Source: a virus
Length of the DNA: 26,823 nt
Virus record (IMG/VR): IMGVR_UViG_3300036985_000738
Coordinates: 1-26,823 of that record
Strand: one strand, 5' to 3'
The translations under genes were made by a program, and so were the position numbers. Below the pieces are notes generated by a model. That model saw nothing but the letters and a program-made list of their open reading frames with translations. It had not been told where the DNA came from and did no database searches. Shown one piece after another: positions 1 to 25,672 of this stretch; positions within the stretch are counted from its first letter, which is position 1; the number at the start of each line of letters is the position of its first letter.

Positions 1-91
1 GGGGGGTACCGGGAAAAGAAGGCGGCGGGGGGTAAGGATTCTGAAGATATGCCGTATGTCCCTAGATAGATAGAGTATCTATTATATACAT

Positions 92-115
92 GGGGTACGG
101 GGGGGGTGGTGTGGG
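92..115 (+). other. G-run cluster, G-quadruplex-capable
   Basis: Runs GGGG (92-95), eight G (99-106) and GGG (113-115) are separated by 3 and 6 bases. If the eight-G run supplies two tracts, the canonical four-tract pattern with loops of 1-7 bases is met. A second set of G-runs at 1-6, 11-13 and 27-32 shares the string GGGGTAC with 92-98. Such runs are unusual in this AT-rich sequence. Function is unknown, and an assembly edge effect cannot be excluded. Confidence 0.35.
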
Positions 116-196
116 TGTGTGTCTGGGTTTAGTCTTTGATTGTTCTCATCTGATCCTGTAAGCCGGCTGATATATCACATATATATCTCTGGGAGC

Positions 197-226
197 TTGA
201 CTGGGTTCCTGGAAGTGTGCTAGACT
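197..226 (+). promoter_or_regulatory. Sigma-70-type promoter with extended -10
   Basis: The -35 element is TTGACT (197-202). After 18 bases comes TAGACT (221-226), preceded by TG at 218-219, which gives an extended -10 (TGnTAGACT). The expected start site is near 233. No coding gene follows for 530 bases; the first thing downstream is the structured segment at 242-409, so this promoter probably makes a non-coding or long leader RNA. Confidence 0.5.
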
Positions 227-232
227 GTACCT

Positions 233-409
233 TGTCAGTGAGGGAGCCTTAGAGGGTTGGCTTCTTTACTGATACTGTTGTTAAGCTATGCCATAATAAG
301 GCCCAGGATTGTTCGGGATAATACCTGAATAGTCCTGGGCATCTCCTTGTAAAGGGAGATATTGCTCCACTACGTGGGAGCATTCTCCTTTGTGTAGGCT
401 AAGGCTTCT
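233..409 (+). ncRNA. Candidate structured non-coding RNA with a closing stem and three hairpins
   Basis: Seen directly: positions 242-252 can pair with 399-409 (11 pairs including two G-U; core AGCCTTAG with CTAAGGCT). This stem encloses three hairpins in a row. The first, 301-340, has outer arms GCCCAGGA / TCCTGGGC and an inner 9-pair stem with G-U pairs, so 17 pairs close a 6-base loop. The second, 341-360, is an 8-pair stem with a GTAA (GNRA-type) tetraloop. The third, 363-382, pairs TGCTCC with GGAGCA. The hairpins are contiguous or nearly so. G-U pairs, which complete the stems only as RNA, favour an RNA-level role. A promoter ending at 226 would start transcription just before it. Family is not recognised; the 5' boundary is inferred from the promoter and the 3' end may lie further right. 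Confidence 0.5.
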
Positions 410-562
410 CCTATCTGGATTAGTGATGGATGATACGTGAACTATCTGAGTTAAAGATACCTCTAGTATTAAATTGAAGTATACCCTATTAGTTCGGGTG
501 AGTGAACCTATCTGTGTTTGTGATGGGGAAGTCCAGTTGAAGCTTATAATATAATGCTTGTA

Positions 563-601
563 GTAACTGACGCAGGAAGTTACACATGCAGTTAGGCATG
601 T
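563..601 (+). other. Two back-to-back hairpins
   Basis: GTAACT (563-568) pairs with AGTTAC (578-583) over a 9-base loop. Immediately after, ACATGC (584-589) pairs with GCATGT (596-601) over a 6-base loop. A pyrimidine-rich stretch follows (602-616). They could be the 3' part of the upstream RNA or a terminator-like structure, but there is no clear U-tract. Confidence 0.35.
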
Positions 602-658
602 CTTCTCTCCCTCTCTAGAATATGTATTATCATATATAGAACTATTAGAACTTGTGAT

Positions 659-704
659 TTGCGGCGAATCATATTAAAGTTTTGTTTTGAGTTGCGGCGA
701 GTCA
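659..704 (+). repeat. 13-base direct repeat TTGCGGCGARTCA, operator candidate
   Basis: TTGCGGCGAATCA at 659-671 and TTGCGGCGAGTCA at 692-704 differ at one base and are 33 bases apart, about three helical turns. The right copy covers the -35 element of the promoter at 692-720. This placement fits a binding site for a regulator of that promoter; which protein would bind is unknown. Confidence 0.45.
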
Positions 705-720
705 CTAAACCTGCTATAAT
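692..720 (+). promoter_or_regulatory. Sigma-70-type promoter for the plus-strand gene cluster
   Basis: TTGCGG (692-697) lies 17 bases before a perfect TATAAT (715-720). The start site is expected near 727, giving a leader of about 38 bases with the Shine-Dalgarno sequence AAGGAG at 753-758 before the ATG at 765. It is the best-placed promoter for the early genes. Confidence 0.65.
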
Positions 721-764
721 ACTTCTAGCTGCTAATAAGGGCAGTGATTAACAAGGAGATTAAA

Positions 765-860
765 ATGAAGCTAGGTTCAATGTTCGCAGTAAGACAAGCA
801 GTAAGCAATGTTAAATACTCAATCGAATTGTTGGTTGAGAGAATCATCTGGATGTTCTAA
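765..860 (+). CDS. 31-residue small protein
   Basis: This tiny reading frame starts with ATG six bases after a perfect AAGGAG (753-758) and lies directly downstream of the TATAAT promoter at 715-720, which together make it likely to be translated. The product begins MKLGSMFAVRQAV and ends in a hydrophobic/aromatic tail (IELLVERIIWMF), so it could be an amphipathic or membrane-associated helix. It is too short for family recognition. A second promoter (864-892) begins just after its stop codon, so it may be expressed apart from the genes that follow. Confidence 0.55.
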   Translation: MKLGSMFAVRQAVSNVKYSIELLVERIIWMF

Positions 861-863
861 TCA

Positions 864-892
864 TTGTAAGAAACTGATGTTTCTGATATACT
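864..892 (+). promoter_or_regulatory. Sigma-70-type promoter with extended -10
   Basis: TTGTAA (864-869), a 17-base spacer, then TATACT (887-892) preceded by TG at 884-885 (extended -10). The start site would be near 899, ahead of the Shine-Dalgarno sequence AAGGA (920-924) of the gene at 933. It probably drives the long run of overlapping plus-strand genes. Confidence 0.55.
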
Positions 893-932
893 TGATTACT
901 ATTACCTATAGGAGAGTGGAAGGATTAACACT

Positions 933-1046
933 ATGAATGAAACGATTACATATGCAGGAGTTATCTGGCTGATTTGTGGCTGGACTATTGGTAGGATTAT
1001 AGGCATATTGCTTATTGATAGATTGGATAGACGTAATGGTAAGTGA
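933..1046 (+). CDS. 37-residue single-pass membrane protein
   Basis: ATG at 933 follows AAGGA (920-924) by eight bases. Residues about 6-29 are hydrophobic (tyrosine, glycine, valine, isoleucine, tryptophan, leucine), followed by a basic tail DRLDRRNGK, so the protein probably spans the membrane once with a cytoplasmic positive C-terminus. The next gene starts inside it at 1036, an 11-base overlap, which argues for coupled translation. Function is unknown; small early membrane proteins of phages often act on host envelope processes or superinfection, but nothing here shows that. Confidence 0.55.
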   Translation: MNETITYAGVIWLICGWTIGRIIGILLIDRLDRRNGK

Positions 1047-1131
1047 AATTATATTCATGACTGTTATGTTTGCGGCGACCTTCATTATTATTAAAGGTGT
1101 GTGTGGAATTGCAGGGAAGTTTATTAAGTGA
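1036..1131 (+). CDS. 31-residue hydrophobic small protein
   Basis: ATG at 1036 overlaps the previous small gene by 11 bases, and its stop TGA (1129-1131) overlaps the GTG start at 1128 of the next gene (GTGA). The product is hydrophobic from about residue 4 to 19 (EIIFMTVMFAATFIII) with lysines at 20, 28 and 31, so it is probably a small membrane protein. It has no strong Shine-Dalgarno sequence of its own, so translation most likely depends on the upstream gene. The nested overlaps on both sides are the main support. Confidence 0.45.
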   Translation: MVSEIIFMTVMFAATFIIIKGVCGIAGKFIK

Positions 1132-4722: not shown

Positions 4723-5121
4723 TTGTTTCAAGAGTTTTTAGATTCATTAGATAAGAAAGACTTTGAAATTAAACGTGACATGTATCGCAATGGCAGGTTA
4801 GTTGTTGAGATGGAACAGAAACATCGTGACCAAGATTGGAAACCATCTGGTCTATCTGTAACTACAGCTAAGTGGTGGGTCTACCTGTTCTCTGATGACG
4901 CATTCTTAGTAGTTGAAGTTGCACGTTTAAAAAAGTACATTGAAATAAATAATCAAATGGAATTAAAAACATTTGCACCTCGTAGTTACAACCCGACAAG
5001 GGGATATTTATTATTAGCTGAGGACGTAAGTAAGCTAATGGCTAGCGAAGTGTATGATAGGCCTATTGAACGCAACACAGAGCCTCACAGAGGGCAACCA
5101 GGGCAATGTGGTGGAGCATAG
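4723..5121 (+). CDS. Probable PD-(D/E)XK-fold phage protein
   Basis: The protein has 132 residues with a TTG start at 4723, eight bases after GAGG (4711-4714). No other start codon exists upstream in this frame before a stop at 4696. The sequence pattern is an acidic residue in DFEIKRD (13-19), a strand with LVVEMEQK (26-33), then GLSVTTAKWWVYLF (43-56) and a hydrophobic strand FLVVEVARL. This layout resembles phage proteins with a restriction-endonuclease-like fold that process DNA ends or junctions. The catalytic set would be D/E13-15, E29 or E31 and K33. The assignment is from pattern only. It overlaps the sigma-like gene by 16 bases. Confidence 0.6.
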   Translation: MFQEFLDSLDKKDFEIKRDMYRNGRLVVEMEQKHRDQDWKPSGLSVTTAKWWVYLFSDDAFLVVEVARLKKYIEINNQMELKTFAPRSYNPTRGYLLLAEDVSKLMASEVYDRPIERNTEPHRGQPGQCGGA

Positions 5122-5495
5122 GTCACACAGTGAAGCCTAACAACCGAGAGATACCTTTCCTCATTGACGACCTGTTGGCTATAACAATTAGACCAAGACC
5201 TGAAAATGAATGGCAAGCTTTAATGGAAGCTGTACCTGGTGATGAACCAGAAGGATCTAAAGATGTGTTGCAGCCACTGCGTGAAGCAGTAGTAGATTGC
5301 ATTGACATGTTGTCAGAGCAGGACCATTTTATTATTGATGCTATGAACTCAGAACAAATAACTTACGATGAGTTGGGCAAACGATTAGGCACATCGCTTA
5401 CACATGCCTGGCGTCTACGCAATGCAGCTTATAAGAACTTAGAACAAATATTAGAACGTCATGATGTTATAAGAACTTACTTAAGGTTCAGCTGA
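5106..5495 (+). CDS. Sigma factor region 4-like helix-turn-helix protein
   Basis: The protein has 129 residues. Residues about 55-115 look like sigma-70 region 4: a helix LREAVVDCIDMLSEQDHFII, then a helix-turn-helix ITYDELGKRLGTSLTHAWRL (85-104) followed by RNAAYKNLEQIL. It lacks regions 2 and 3, so it is not a complete sigma factor; it may bind RNA polymerase or DNA as a transcription regulator. The ATG overlaps the upstream gene by 16 bases, and its stop overlaps the next start (TGATG). As the only obvious transcription-factor-like protein in the window, it is a candidate for switching on late genes, which is an inference. Confidence 0.7.
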   Translation: MWWSIGHTVKPNNREIPFLIDDLLAITIRPRPENEWQALMEAVPGDEPEGSKDVLQPLREAVVDCIDMLSEQDHFIIDAMNSEQITYDELGKRLGTSLTHAWRLRNAAYKNLEQILERHDVIRTYLRFS

Positions 5496-18568: not shown

Positions 18569-19546
18569 TTATACGTCAGCCGACAAGTAGCCTTGACGTG
18601 AACGGTTGGAGCAGGTAAGCTGACCGTAGGCCAATACGATGGCGTAACGAGCGTCTTTCTGCGCAACTGTACCCTGCTGGAATGGAGTACTGGTGAACCA
18701 GTGACCATTCATACCAGTAAGCTTGAGGTACTTCGTATTGAGGAAGTACATCGAGGCATTGGATGACTGGGCGCCAGGCATTGCCAAGTCGTAAACGACT
18801 GGGGTTTGCTTGAACATCAAGTTCTGGAATCCAGCATTTGCTTTTGCAACGTCCTGGTAACGTACGTTTGGTGTCAACAGAGACTCATACTTGCTGAACA
18901 ATGGCTCAGTTGTGATGATGATATCTGGTGTGTCGTTACCCTTCGATGCATTGTTGTACACGTTTGCCATGTTAACAAGGCTCAAAGTTGCGTTTTGTAT
19001 TCCTGCTGGAATGGTTGGGTTCCACCATGATTCGGTTGCTGCGTCAATGCCACCAATTGCTGTGTTTAATGAACCAGCGTAACCGCCGATACCATTGAAC
19101 TCAAGTGGGTTGGTTGTACCGTCGTTCGAGCTAAGGAGCTGGTCGTTGACGAGCTTCTTGATCGACATTTCGGCTTGCATAATTTTAGCATTCAACAACT
19201 TGATGATTGCTTCTGTTCCACGGTTCTTGGCTTCTTCAATACCGCTGATTGCAATGGATGCAGCAATCTGCTTCCAGTTGTAAATAGCAGCTGTGATGCC
19301 TTCTTGTGGTGTAAGCAAGATGTTATCGTAGTCAGCGTACGATGCAGCAGTTGTGTTTTCCTCATAGAGTACTGGCTCAACTATCTGAGTTCCGCCTTCT
19401 TCCATAACAACTCTTCCACCTTGATTCATGTGGTTCAAAAGAACGAGGTCCTTGAATATGTTGTCAACCAGCGTTGGCTGGTAGTTTTGCAATGTTGTAG
19501 AAAACAGAGCATTCATGTCTACTGTATTCACGTTTGGTGAAGTCAT
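18569..19546 (-). CDS. Major capsid protein, HK97-like
   Basis: The protein has 325 residues. It follows scaffold and portal and precedes a terminator, the usual place. Visible features: an N-terminal arm (TLVDNIFKDLVLLNHMNQGG), an E-loop region (TQIVEPVLYEENTTAASYAD), a long spine-type helix (EAIIKLLNAKIMQAEMSIKK) and a C-terminal part (YFLNTKYLKLTGMNGHWF, YAIVLAYGQLTCSNRSRQGY). The gene's GC (about 43-53% in sampled lines) is higher than its neighbours (near 33-38%), which suggests codon selection for very high expression. It starts with ATG after AAGGAG. Confidence 0.8.
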   Translation of the reverse strand: MTSPNVNTVDMNALFSTTLQNYQPTLVDNIFKDLVLLNHMNQGGRVVMEEGGTQIVEPVLYEENTTAASYADYDNILLTPQEGITAAIYNWKQIAASIAISGIEEAKNRGTEAIIKLLNAKIMQAEMSIKKLVNDQLLSSNDGTTNPLEFNGIGGYAGSLNTAIGGIDAATESWWNPTIPAGIQNATLSLVNMANVYNNASKGNDTPDIIITTEPLFSKYESLLTPNVRYQDVAKANAGFQNLMFKQTPVVYDLAMPGAQSSNASMYFLNTKYLKLTGMNGHWFTSTPFQQGTVAQKDARYAIVLAYGQLTCSNRSRQGYLSADV

Positions 19547-19576: not shown

Positions 19577-20362
19577 TTAAAGCCCCAAGCCTTTTTTGGC
19601 TTGTTCAAAGGCTTCAAATACTGTTTTAGGTGCAGTAGTTGCGGCTGGATTCCCACCCTTAGAAGATGCGCCTGTGGAAACAATTGTTGCCGAACGCTTT
19701 GCTTGAACTCTAGCTTGCTCATCAGCCAGTTTTTTACTGGACTCAGAAGCTTTAGAATAAATTTTATCAAAAGCAACTTGTTTAAAAACTGCTTCTAAAT
19801 CTGTCATTCCTGTTGCTATAGCTTTAGCTACAACTTCATCTGAATTAAAATCTTCACCGTACTTGCTTTGTAATGTATCGATAGTTCTCTTCAAATCATC
19901 CATAGCTTTTGATTGTTCGAAAGCCTGGATTCTTTGCTCTAACTGTCGCATTTGCTTTTCAGCTGGATCCAACCACTCCTCTTCTTCAGGAGTTGTTGTA
20001 ACCGTTTCCACACCATAGTGCTGCTGTAAAGCCTGCAAGGTGCCTGCTGGGTCTTCTTGCAACGATTGTGCAAGAGTAGCAGCAAATTCAACTTGCTTTC
20101 TTTGTTCGCTAAGTTCCTGTGTCTTACGGGTATAATCCGCTTGACGTTGGTACCCAGCTAGAGCCTCCTGTAAAGGGACTGTAACTTCTTCTCCATTAAC
20201 TTGGATTTTGACGACCTTGTCGGCAACATCTGTATAGTCAAAAAAGTCTGGCTCTTCTATTACGCCTGCTTCGCCTAATTCCTCAACTTGTCCATCTTCG
20301 ATAATGGGGTCGATTACTTCAGTACTAGCACTAGCATCATTATTTATTTCTTCATTACTCAT
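19577..20362 (-). CDS. Scaffolding protein
   Basis: The protein has 261 residues, is very acidic at the N-terminus, and has a coiled middle. The segment VNGEEVTVPLQEALAGYQRQ, followed by ADYTRKTQELSEQRK (about 53-87), is typical of podovirus capsid assembly scaffolds. Coiled coil continues to about residue 180; the Thr/Ala/Gly-rich linker leads to a C-terminal helix (FEAFEQAKKGLGL) that would bind capsid protein. It lies between portal and capsid and is preceded by the AT-rich motif (20388-20416). Confidence 0.8.
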   Translation of the reverse strand: MSNEEINNDASASTEVIDPIIEDGQVEELGEAGVIEEPDFFDYTDVADKVVKIQVNGEEVTVPLQEALAGYQRQADYTRKTQELSEQRKQVEFAATLAQSLQEDPAGTLQALQQHYGVETVTTTPEEEEWLDPAEKQMRQLEQRIQAFEQSKAMDDLKRTIDTLQSKYGEDFNSDEVVAKAIATGMTDLEAVFKQVAFDKIYSKASESSKKLADEQARVQAKRSATIVSTGASSKGGNPAATTAPKTVFEAFEQAKKGLGL

Positions 20363-20427: not shown

Positions 20428-22377
20428 TTATTGTGGCGGCTGTCCTTGTAACGCTGCCAATATCTCAGGTGGTAGACCTTCTAATCCTCCAGCTTGAGGT
20501 GCTTGGCCCTGTAAAGCAGCCAGTATTTCAGGAGGTAAACCTTCCATGCCGCCTTGAGGTAGTGCTTCCTGCTGTGGAGGACCACCTTGTCCAGCCATTA
20601 AAGCAGCCATTAATTCAGGAGGCAATCCCTCCATGCCACCTTGTTCTGCTTCCATCCCTGCCATATCATCTGGGGGCATACCTGGTGGCATGCCTTGTCC
20701 TTCTAGATCTGCCTCGTCAGGAGTCATACCTTCTGGTGCTTGTTGTTCTGGACTTTGTAAAAATGCTCCTGCATTCTTTACTCCGAATCCAGTACTTAAA
20801 ACATACTCAGCCAACTTAGGTAAATTAACAAGTCCTGCCTGGGCAAACGGTTGCATTGCCGAAACGATCTGCATAGCCATATCTCTACGGAAAGCTTCGT
20901 TACGTGGGGCTGTAGATCCAGCCTCAACATTAAAGTCAAACTCACCAGAGATATAATCTTTATCAAAAGTCAACCATACAGGTGCGTTCTCACTGCCTAC
21001 TATTCTTACAGTCTGCTCACCAGTTAAATACTGTTGGGCTAGCATTATAAGATTAGAAGCACATGCAGCTATGCAGTTCTCAATATCTATAAGCTTTTCA
21101 GCTACTCTAGCATTACCGGACTCAGCAATGATTGATGCTTCGCGGGCGGTTCTAGTTGTTTCTGGGATGATTCCACGCTGATACTCTGACACACCTGACA
21201 CACGGTCGATGTCTGCTTCAATTGACTCACTCATCTTATAGAATTCAGGTGGGTTAATATAAGCCGGCATTGCAGCCACTACGTTCTGTAGATTTTCATT
21301 ACCTTTAACTGGAACCAATACGTTGTCATCGTCTGATGCTAAAGCCTGACGTCCAACATCATCGAATGCTGATTCACTAAATAGATACTTACGGGAGAAG
21401 CGTTTTCTATGGTTCATCATCTGTGTACGAGTTTCATTTAATTCGTACTGCAATGGTTCGATTGCTTCTAGTTCACCCATTGGATAAAACAATCCAGGAA
21501 TCTCGTAGTTGCGTAACATGATGAATGGATGACCAAATACATATGGCATCTTTACTGGCTTGACTAGGAACTTATCACCAGTGTCTGAGAATATGCACAT
21601 CTCACCAGTATCAACATTGTAATACTCATAGATATTGCACATAGCTTCTTCTGTGTCATAGTTATAATCATAAGCATTGGTAGTTAGATAATCTATTGAT
21701 GCTGTATTAACAGCTGGTCCTACGTTTTGTCTTGCTGAATAATCATAACGTTCATCGTTCTTAACATCTTTTAATGTGCGGCGACTTTTCTGTGCAATCC
21801 AACGCAAGTCATTCATATCTGTTGCATAAGGATCTACATACATATTAAATGGGTCAACACGTTCTAGGAATGGACGGTCTTCTCTAATTATAAATGTTGA
21901 TTCAACATCACCTGTTGGTGGATTTTCTTTACTTACAGCTTCATCAGCAGTGTCTTGAATATCATCAAGCTTTGCTTCTTCAACAAAACGATAACCAGTC
22001 TTAACCCAACCATGACCAATAATTAAATAATCTTTTGCTGCTCTTTGAAACTCTGGTTGACAACCATAATGCTGCCACCAATAGTTAATGATTGATTCAG
22101 TAACAACAGCCTTGTCACCGTCTTCTGGTCTACGTGGATTAACATTAATCTTTGGACGACCAATAGCAATTGCAGGAGCTAGAGTATTAATAGTTGAGAA
22201 TGCAACGTTAACAAGCAATCTGTCACCAACACCAGCACCACGATAATGTCTACCACGATACAAGTTAATTAAACGTTGCCAAAGTTGAATATAATTTTGT
22301 TGCTCTAATACTTTTTGTGCTAAGTTAATCTTTTGTCTATACTGACTTAACTTATCCGAATTACTTTGACGTGCCAT
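20428..22377 (-). CDS. Portal protein
   Basis: The protein has 649 residues. Typical podovirus portal features: NLYRGRHYRG near the start, AIAIGRPKINVNPRRPEDGD, YLIIGHGWVKTGYRF, ERVDPFNMYVDPYATDMNDL, and RVSGVSEYQRGIIPETTRTA. The C-terminal 110 residues are Pro/Met/Gly/Gln-rich and contain three near-repeats (GGxEGLPPExxAAL). It forms the 12-fold ring for DNA passage and docks the terminase. It starts with ATG; the upstream ribosome-binding site is weak (GGGA). Confidence 0.85.
   Translation of the reverse strand: MARQSNSDKLSQYRQKINLAQKVLEQQNYIQLWQRLINLYRGRHYRGAGVGDRLLVNVAFSTINTLAPAIAIGRPKINVNPRRPEDGDKAVVTESIINYWWQHYGCQPEFQRAAKDYLIIGHGWVKTGYRFVEEAKLDDIQDTADEAVSKENPPTGDVESTFIIREDRPFLERVDPFNMYVDPYATDMNDLRWIAQKSRRTLKDVKNDERYDYSARQNVGPAVNTASIDYLTTNAYDYNYDTEEAMCNIYEYYNVDTGEMCIFSDTGDKFLVKPVKMPYVFGHPFIMLRNYEIPGLFYPMGELEAIEPLQYELNETRTQMMNHRKRFSRKYLFSESAFDDVGRQALASDDDNVLVPVKGNENLQNVVAAMPAYINPPEFYKMSESIEADIDRVSGVSEYQRGIIPETTRTAREASIIAESGNARVAEKLIDIENCIAACASNLIMLAQQYLTGEQTVRIVGSENAPVWLTFDKDYISGEFDFNVEAGSTAPRNEAFRRDMAMQIVSAMQPFAQAGLVNLPKLAEYVLSTGFGVKNAGAFLQSPEQQAPEGMTPDEADLEGQGMPPGMPPDDMAGMEAEQGGMEGLPPELMAALMAGQGGPPQQEALPQGGMEGLPPEILAALQGQAPQAGGLEGLPPEILAALQGQPPQ
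20456..20640 (-). repeat. Three near-identical repeats in the portal C-terminus
   Basis: A 35-base unit occurs at 20456-20490, 20519-20553 and 20606-20640 and encodes GGxEGLPPExxAAL each time. Unit spacing is 63 and 87 bases; the spacer encodes Gln/Pro/Gly-rich linkers. DNA identity between units suggests recent duplication or continuing slippage. Confidence 0.7.
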
Positions 22378-24082: not shown

Positions 24083-25672
24083 CTAGTAATTATTAAACTC
24101 ACCAATCCAGTGACGTTCACGACTCTTCTCTTTCTTAATAACAGTCTTTGAAAAATAAGCTAAGGTTCCAAATGCAGGGTCAGTTTTAGGGGTGTACTCT
24201 GGCAGCCAAACATACTTAAGCATCTGGTTAGCAATAGCCAAAGACATTACGCGGTCGTCGTGCGGGGAACCATGTGTAGCTCCATTGTCGTCACGGACAA
24301 AGGTCTTAAGTTCAGCAATCGTAAACTCACACTTAAGATCTAAAGCACCGTCTCTTAGGTTAGCATTGAGTTCGTCTATAGCTAAAGGCTTTGACAAGGT
24401 TGTTGTGCGCCAACCCAGCTTTTCTCCTGCTTCTGCGTGGCGTGTATTCAATTGACGCTGTCTATAAAGATTAATATAATTAGCTTTATTTAAAGATGTT
24501 AAAGTTGTTAAACCGTGGTTATTAGACTCAACACCTATTAAAGCTTCATTATAAAAGAAGCCTAATGCATATAATATTTCTTCGCCAAATTTGTCTGGGT
24601 CTACGTGTCCATGCCAATGGGCTACAACCTGTCCAGACTTAGCGTCAATAACGTGAGCAGCAGAATAGTCACCTCTAGCTAGACCTTCAGCAACGTCAGC
24701 ACCAATAACATATCTAGCTCTTGCTTGGGGCAATTGCCATATGGATAAAGGACCGCCAGAAGATTCAAACATATAGGAGTTCCTAATATCTGAAAGCTTT
24801 TTATTAAAACCTTTTTTAGGAGCTTCAGTTTCAAACTTCATTAAAGCATCAATATCAAATACTGGACGACCCGAACGAATAAAGGCTTCTTCAGGGTTTG
24901 ACGGGTACTCTTGGTGCAACTGCCATGGTGGTAGTTCTGCAGCTTGCGCGTCATACCAGGCTTGGTCACGGTCTGATGCTGACCATGGAAAGAAGATTCC
25001 ACGGAAACGATTAGTCCCAGTCTGGGAACCATGCCATAAATTAAAGAATATATTACCTTCACCCTTGGCAGTAGACAGACAGATTACTCGACCGCCTACG
25101 TCAGCAATAGGCTCAATAGATGCCCAGGCTTCTTCAGGGTTAGGTAAGAAGGCCATCTCGTCAATGATAGCTAGGTATACTGATTCACCACGAGCAGGTT
25201 CATTAGCAGATGGCATTGATTCAATTACGGAATCATTACCGAATGACATCTTAAGAACGTTATTTTGCAGCATCTCTGGACCAGATAATCTTATGAAATC
25301 TGGCAAGAACTTGTAGATATATTTAGCTTTAGATAAAAGTTTTGCAGCTTCACGTTCAGTCTTTGAAAGCATGACCACAAATCTGTCTGGCCAGAAGAAA
25401 GTAATCCAGAAGGCATAAGCTGCAGCCAGTGTGGAGAATCCGATCTGACGTGCTTTAAGAACTATAGTATATCTTTCACCTAACCATACTTTAACAGTTT
25501 CTTTTTGCGCGTTCCTTAGAACAAGAGGAATACGTCCTTTGTTAGGATGTTTAATGAATGCATAGTTTTCACAGAAGAAAGCAAATGCTTCTGCTAGTTC
25601 TTCTGGTGTTGCATTCTCTGGACCACGGCACTTACGAAAGTTATATTCATTTAAAAGTTCATCTAAATTCAC
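24083..25672 (-). CDS. terL: Terminase large subunit
   Basis: The protein has 529 residues. ATPase domain: Walker A-like KARQIGFST (73-81), Walker B VYLAIIDE (165-172), and coupling motif LSTAKG (199-204). Nuclease domain: D326 in YVIGADVAEG, E382 in LIGVESNNHG, and D472/D473 in SPHDDRVMSLAI. These fit an RNase H-fold packaging nuclease. It cuts and pumps DNA into the prohead through the portal. The start is GTG at 25672, seven bases after GGAG, and overlaps the sulfotransferase gene by 14 bases. No small subunit is recognised in the window. Confidence 0.9.
   Translation of the reverse strand: MNLDELLNEYNFRKCRGPENATPEELAEAFAFFCENYAFIKHPNKGRIPLVLRNAQKETVKVWLGERYTIVLKARQIGFSTLAAAYAFWITFFWPDRFVVMLSKTEREAAKLLSKAKYIYKFLPDFIRLSGPEMLQNNVLKMSFGNDSVIESMPSANEPARGESVYLAIIDEMAFLPNPEEAWASIEPIADVGGRVICLSTAKGEGNIFFNLWHGSQTGTNRFRGIFFPWSASDRDQAWYDAQAAELPPWQLHQEYPSNPEEAFIRSGRPVFDIDALMKFETEAPKKGFNKKLSDIRNSYMFESSGGPLSIWQLPQARARYVIGADVAEGLARGDYSAAHVIDAKSGQVVAHWHGHVDPDKFGEEILYALGFFYNEALIGVESNNHGLTTLTSLNKANYINLYRQRQLNTRHAEAGEKLGWRTTTLSKPLAIDELNANLRDGALDLKCEFTIAELKTFVRDDNGATHGSPHDDRVMSLAIANQMLKYVWLPEYTPKTDPAFGTLAYFSKTVIKKEKSRERHWIGEFNNY

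Follow-up and report, generated by a model that had tools for sequence, protein, structure and literature searches.

The locus and its phage

The window analysed here is the whole of a 26.8-kb IMG/VR virus record. Its minus strand carries genes for a terminase large subunit of the T4/P22 type (Terminase_6N/6C, 24083–25672), a P22-like portal (20428–22377), a scaffold-like protein (19577–20362) and the major capsid protein (18569–19546). A plus-strand gene cluster, with a glycosyltransferase and a methyltransferase among its genes, starts at 1128. A small protein of 129 aa encoded at 5106–5492 (plus strand) shows weak matches to sigma-factor families. Named phages gave no DNA match to window positions 1–1130, and by terminase the closest annotated relative is MW202803 (Manatee Spring) with 54%. 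The carrier looks like a small, uncultured P22-like phage from freshwater; its genome may measure about 36 kb, judging from related contigs of 35 to 38 kb.

Sequence comparison identifies window positions 233–391 (plus strand) as a copy of a conserved phage RNA gene. Further features surround it. Upstream of the RNA promoter there is a strongly G-rich plus-strand tract with runs of up to 8 G (window 1–130); it is also found in L083, L089, L092 and L170, and even in L096, a relative that yielded no copy of the RNA. This tract is possibly a replication or recombination feature. Downstream of the RNA the element ATCTGKRTTWGTGATGG is repeated at 413–429 and 510–526; it occurs in many relatives at varying distance. 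The motif TTGCGGCGA is present three times in the window (659–667, 692–700 and 1070–1078; 0.06 expected), and the copy at 692 lies 17 bases before a TATAAT box (715–720). This copy may be one element of a class of phage promoters.

Anatomy and ends of the RNA

The conserved order is promoter, 5′ hairpin P1, linker, hairpin P2 and an invariant UUCUCCUU tail, all on the plus strand. A consensus scan found the promoter at 197–226 (TTGACT, 18-base spacer and extended −10 box TGCTAGACT), in agreement with the first-pass annotation, which had placed the end of an extended −10 promoter at 226. Homologues of the −10 box are co-located in 13/13 variants. The first P1 pair is found 5 to 6 bases past this box in 12 of the 13 variants (6 bases in the window) and, by the same count, 2 bases past it in L089. 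The start of P1 is predicted to lie close to the expected transcription start, at about +1. Further upstream, about 35 to 55 bases before the −10 box, is the element TGATATATCA-N5-ATATC (168–187, plus strand). Its distance from the −10 box is similar in most variants, including some without a TTGACA-like −35 box. Many copies of it occur in the fetched loci, and it is not enriched in the window (two sites vs. 1.5 expected). It is a possible operator or activator site.

P1 (233–274) stands at the predicted 5′ end and has 16 pairs (233–248 with 259–274), mostly with pair probabilities above 0.97 in the window fold, and a G-rich apical loop, UUAGAGGGUU (249–258). The single-stranded linker that follows is 26 bases long in the window (275–300) and roughly 20 to 35 nt across the family; its motif (consensus AGCUAWGCCAU(AA)UAAG) is conserved in 13/13 variants. 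P2 (301–340, with 301–317 paired to 324–340) is the most conserved segment. Between P2 and the tail the window carries an insert of two hairpins (341–360 with a GUAA loop, and 363–382). This 42-base insert (341–382) is absent from the other 12 variants, its pieces are found in no other fetched locus, and it appears to be lineage-specific. The polypyrimidine tail UUCUCCUUU occupies 383–391, and its UUCUCCUU is invariant in all variants. The RNA core is about 117 to 127 nt in relatives and, because of the insert, about 159 nt in the window.

The first-pass annotation had described a compact structured RNA behind its own promoter, in which a long-range stem (242–252 with 399–409) encloses three contiguous hairpins. 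Its general proposal held up. The segment 233–409 folds at −84.9 kcal/mol (z = −8.25; 0/200 shuffles as good), and the z-score is −6.4 for 233–349, while in five other variants it ranges from −4.9 to −6.5. All three hairpins (301–340 with 17 pairs, 341–360 with its GUAA loop, and 363–382) are real, although the GNRA hairpin and the third one form the window-only insert. The enclosing stem did not stand. Its two strands are complementary in the window (11/11), but the stem has an ensemble probability of 0, a fold made to include it is 6 kcal/mol worse, and the homologous positions in four relatives pair at only 3 to 6 of 11. It would also break P1, which had been overlooked and which shares bases with it; the core is P1-linker-P2-tail. 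A further helix enclosing P2 (P3, linker with 391–405), suggested by single-sequence folds, was dropped as its 3′ strand is not conserved. GGA loops of the CsrA type are not kept across the variants by reading of the alignment. The view that no protein is encoded here was borne out: only short ORFs were found at the RNA, none of them credible, including one of 44 aa on the minus strand that spans the window-only insert. The sequence changes in the RNA track base pairing, and coding capacity is not conserved.

The 3′ conservation boundary is sharp. Directly past the last hairpin eight tail columns have 100% identity, and right after UUCUCCUU identity falls to about 0.3–0.77. Scored as a terminator, P2 plus tail is borderline in relatives, at −7 to +3.5, and the window scores poorly, with −25 for P2 and −27 for the insert hairpin; termination is thus the least secure part of the structural reading.

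Relatives and conservation of structure

A protein search with the 214-aa product of the next large gene yielded 37 loci, and blastn found the RNA upstream of this gene in several of them. Two IMG/VR pattern scans raised the total to 13 distinct sequence variants; some of the contigs end near the RNA, and the synteny check covered part of the 13. A 47.8-kb contig with two copies of the RNA (G001) probably consists of two related genomes joined in assembly and is unlikely to be a true duplication. The covariance model R1 was built from four relatives only, so that the window served as a held-out test, and it recovered the window with 84 bits (E = 1.1e-16). R1 also recovered L092, L082, L127, L145–L150, L153 and L154, with scores of 63 to 101 bits when the window is included. 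Pattern matches in L151 and L152 were rejected as due to chance. Two syntenic candidates of similar shape, L102:3873-3982 and L184:3726-3827, scored 18.9 and 19.2 bits with R1; a second model, R2, found L102 on the minus strand only and L184 at 12.7 bits. These two are unproven as distant members of the family. Downstream of the L102 candidate (L102:4000-4260) lie repeated, operator-like palindromes, GTTAGGTNAGCCTAAC.

The first-pass annotation could match the RNA to no named family, and Rfam, including its GOLLD and ROOL models, was likewise silent for the window and its relatives; Phage_pRNA gave no match even at a relaxed threshold. A search of bacterial genomes (GTDB) for homologues returned a single match, in a Snodgrassella coding sequence, which was judged to be due to chance. 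On the comparative evidence the RNA is a real phage family that is not in Rfam.

Compensatory changes in relatives had been named beforehand as the test that could refute the proposal, and they are present. In an alignment of the 13 variants (32 modelled pairs, 415 cells), 96.6% of cells are paired, compared with 89.8% after shuffling and 34 to 52% when the partners are slid by one to three columns. Both sides have changed in 12 of the 32 pairs (shuffled mean 7.1; 1/500 as high), double changes are seen in 34 cells vs. 11.2 expected (0/500 shuffles), and the covariation score is 0.439 vs. 0.285. P1 is the most sequence-variable and the best-covarying part, with both-side changes in 8 of its 14 modelled pairs and 95% of cells paired. 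In P2, the most conserved part, 97.9% of cells are paired over 18 modelled pairs, of which four have changed on both sides and nine are invariable. G-U cells (91) far outnumber A-C cells (6), which places the RNA on the plus strand. The alignment had been fitted to the structure model, and through recombination the variants are not fully independent, but both the slid control and the recovery of the held-out window speak against an artefact. Homology, covariation, strand and conserved ends of the RNA are in this way established by comparison of the variants.

About 0.5 kb upstream of the P1-P2 RNA, relatives have another structured RNA, which is conserved and about 150 nt long; its position falls left of the window start (L083:2642-2794, L089:2220-2373, L092:3712-3868, L140:6259-6411 and L142:17238-17388). 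It has a −10-like box just upstream, a conserved core ATAATCAGTGATGATGAACTAA, eight pairs with both-side changes and, in several variants, an intrinsic terminator. Rfam gave no match to it in L083, L089 and L092.

Possible roles of the RNA

The phage RNA is best filed as an sRNA gene: a promoter lies directly upstream, the structure is under selection and coding capacity is not conserved. Its transcription, its termination and any target are predicted from sequence. The RNA is probably made as a free-standing sRNA of about 117 to 127 nt (about 159 nt in the window), in which P1 would shield the 5′ terminus and P2 with the tail would act as a weak or factor-assisted intrinsic terminator. It may also act in trans by base pairing, with the tail covering ribosome-binding sites, a step we put forward with clearly less confidence than the first. 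The P1 loop is G-rich and SD-like; it could hide the tail or contact a binding partner. P1 loop-tail kissing was calculated at −6 to −12.6 kcal/mol, no better than with shuffled tails. Taken as a whole, a phage sRNA gene acting in this manner is our best reading, held at a little short of even confidence.

The 3′ end of 16S rRNA carries the anti-Shine-Dalgarno sequence CUCCUUU, which the tail UUCUCCUUU resembles, and the tail complements AAGGAG-type ribosome-binding sites. Its best site is the Shine-Dalgarno sequence of the capsid gene, AAGGAGAA (8/8, −10.2 kcal/mol), which ranks first among the 28 start regions compared. In relatives AAGGAGAA often precedes the capsid gene; the close relative L016 has AAGGAGUA in its place, and distant phages that lack the RNA also have AGGAGAA at this gene. 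A match to Shine-Dalgarno sequences like that of the tail is to be expected of any CUCCUU run. The C residues among the eight tail bases are invariant and are needless for a plain U-tract, which suggests a sequence-specific role. Pairing of the tail with the capsid gene is a lead from sequence matching. A bolder version has the RNA as a mimic of the 16S rRNA 3′ end, with UUCUCCUUU displayed on a hairpin scaffold, the translation of the infected cell controlled by occupation of Shine-Dalgarno sites, the G-rich SD-like loop as the off switch and the capsid mRNA as a main target. We consider this improbable.

The main rival is a cis-acting leader, that is, an attenuator or antitermination element like HK022 put or the lambda pR′ leader, governing the entry of polymerase into the downstream plus-strand genes. 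We think it unlikely, though it has more in its favor than the other rivals. The RNA would open a transcript directed towards the plus-strand gene cluster, P2 appears to derive from a terminator, though a weak one, and in distant phages with the same downstream gene (L102, L184 and L170) a promoter is followed within 60 to 140 nt by a hairpin and a U-rich tail, elements whose homology to the RNA is unproven. However, the sequence past the tail diverges strongly among the variants while the RNA is kept, and the next small ORF has its own promoter-like box (713–720, by sequence reading). Lambda 6S RNA, the pR′ leader, is a short terminated phage transcript with its own promoter. Our RNA is likewise a short phage RNA with its own promoter and predicted termination; unlike lambda 6S RNA, it does not have the late structural genes downstream, since these are on the other strand. 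The HK022 putL site is a two-stem RNA just downstream of an early promoter, and put is a V-shaped cis antiterminator of about 70 nt (PMC9378689). Both systems have two long stem-loops near a phage transcript start. Compared with the compact put RNA, the phage RNA core is longer (117 to 127 nt), its stems are split by the linker (26 bases apart here) and it carries a polypyrimidine tail.

Somewhat less probable again is a protein-binding decoy or scaffold, in which the P1 stem and G-rich loop bind a protein of host or phage origin (RNA polymerase, an RNA chaperone or a nuclease) and mRNA pairing is not the job of the RNA. The P1 stem sequence drifts freely while its pairing and the G-rich loop stay, as is typical of a recognised shape; the invariance of the eight tail bases would be left unexplained. 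That there is no RNA function, and that the hairpins are fortuitous or are conserved features of the DNA itself in an intergenic regulatory region, could draw on a neighborhood rich in repeats and G-rich DNA; the compensatory changes, the one-strand G-U bias and the fixed promoter-to-P1 spacing speak against it, and the covariation has largely refuted it. Least credible is a packaging RNA like phi29 pRNA or a large ornate RNA (GOLLD, ROOL), analogies drawn by the first-pass annotation that fit here only in the compact structure and the location in a phage. The large terminase subunit belongs to the T4/P22 kind, the portal is P22-like, Rfam has no match, and with about 120 nt the core falls far short of GOLLD or ROOL in size. 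The position at the left end of the window had first suggested a phi29-like pRNA; it was rejected by the P22-like gene content and the silence of Rfam. phi29 pRNA is also a structured phage RNA of roughly similar length, but our RNA has a simple two-hairpin fold, no Rfam match and, in its phage, a different packaging motor with a T4/P22-type terminase.

With the sRNA reading preferred, the closest comparison is to phage sRNAs such as DicF and svsR, the latter a prophage sRNA that alters host gene expression (PMC12803456). The RNA resembles them in being short, non-coding and phage-encoded, with a tail that may pair. It differs in that it has no Rfam match, is carried by an apparent small P22-like phage and gave only the chance match in GTDB genomes.

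Comparative support exists for few sRNAs of uncultured phages. With a clear promoter, sharp ends, 13 variants and strong covariation, this one is a candidate for curation as a new RNA family, and it could be sought in freshwater metatranscriptomes. The second RNA upstream in relatives suggests a two-RNA control region. The system could also serve to study gene regulation in small phages that have no recognised RNA polymerase.
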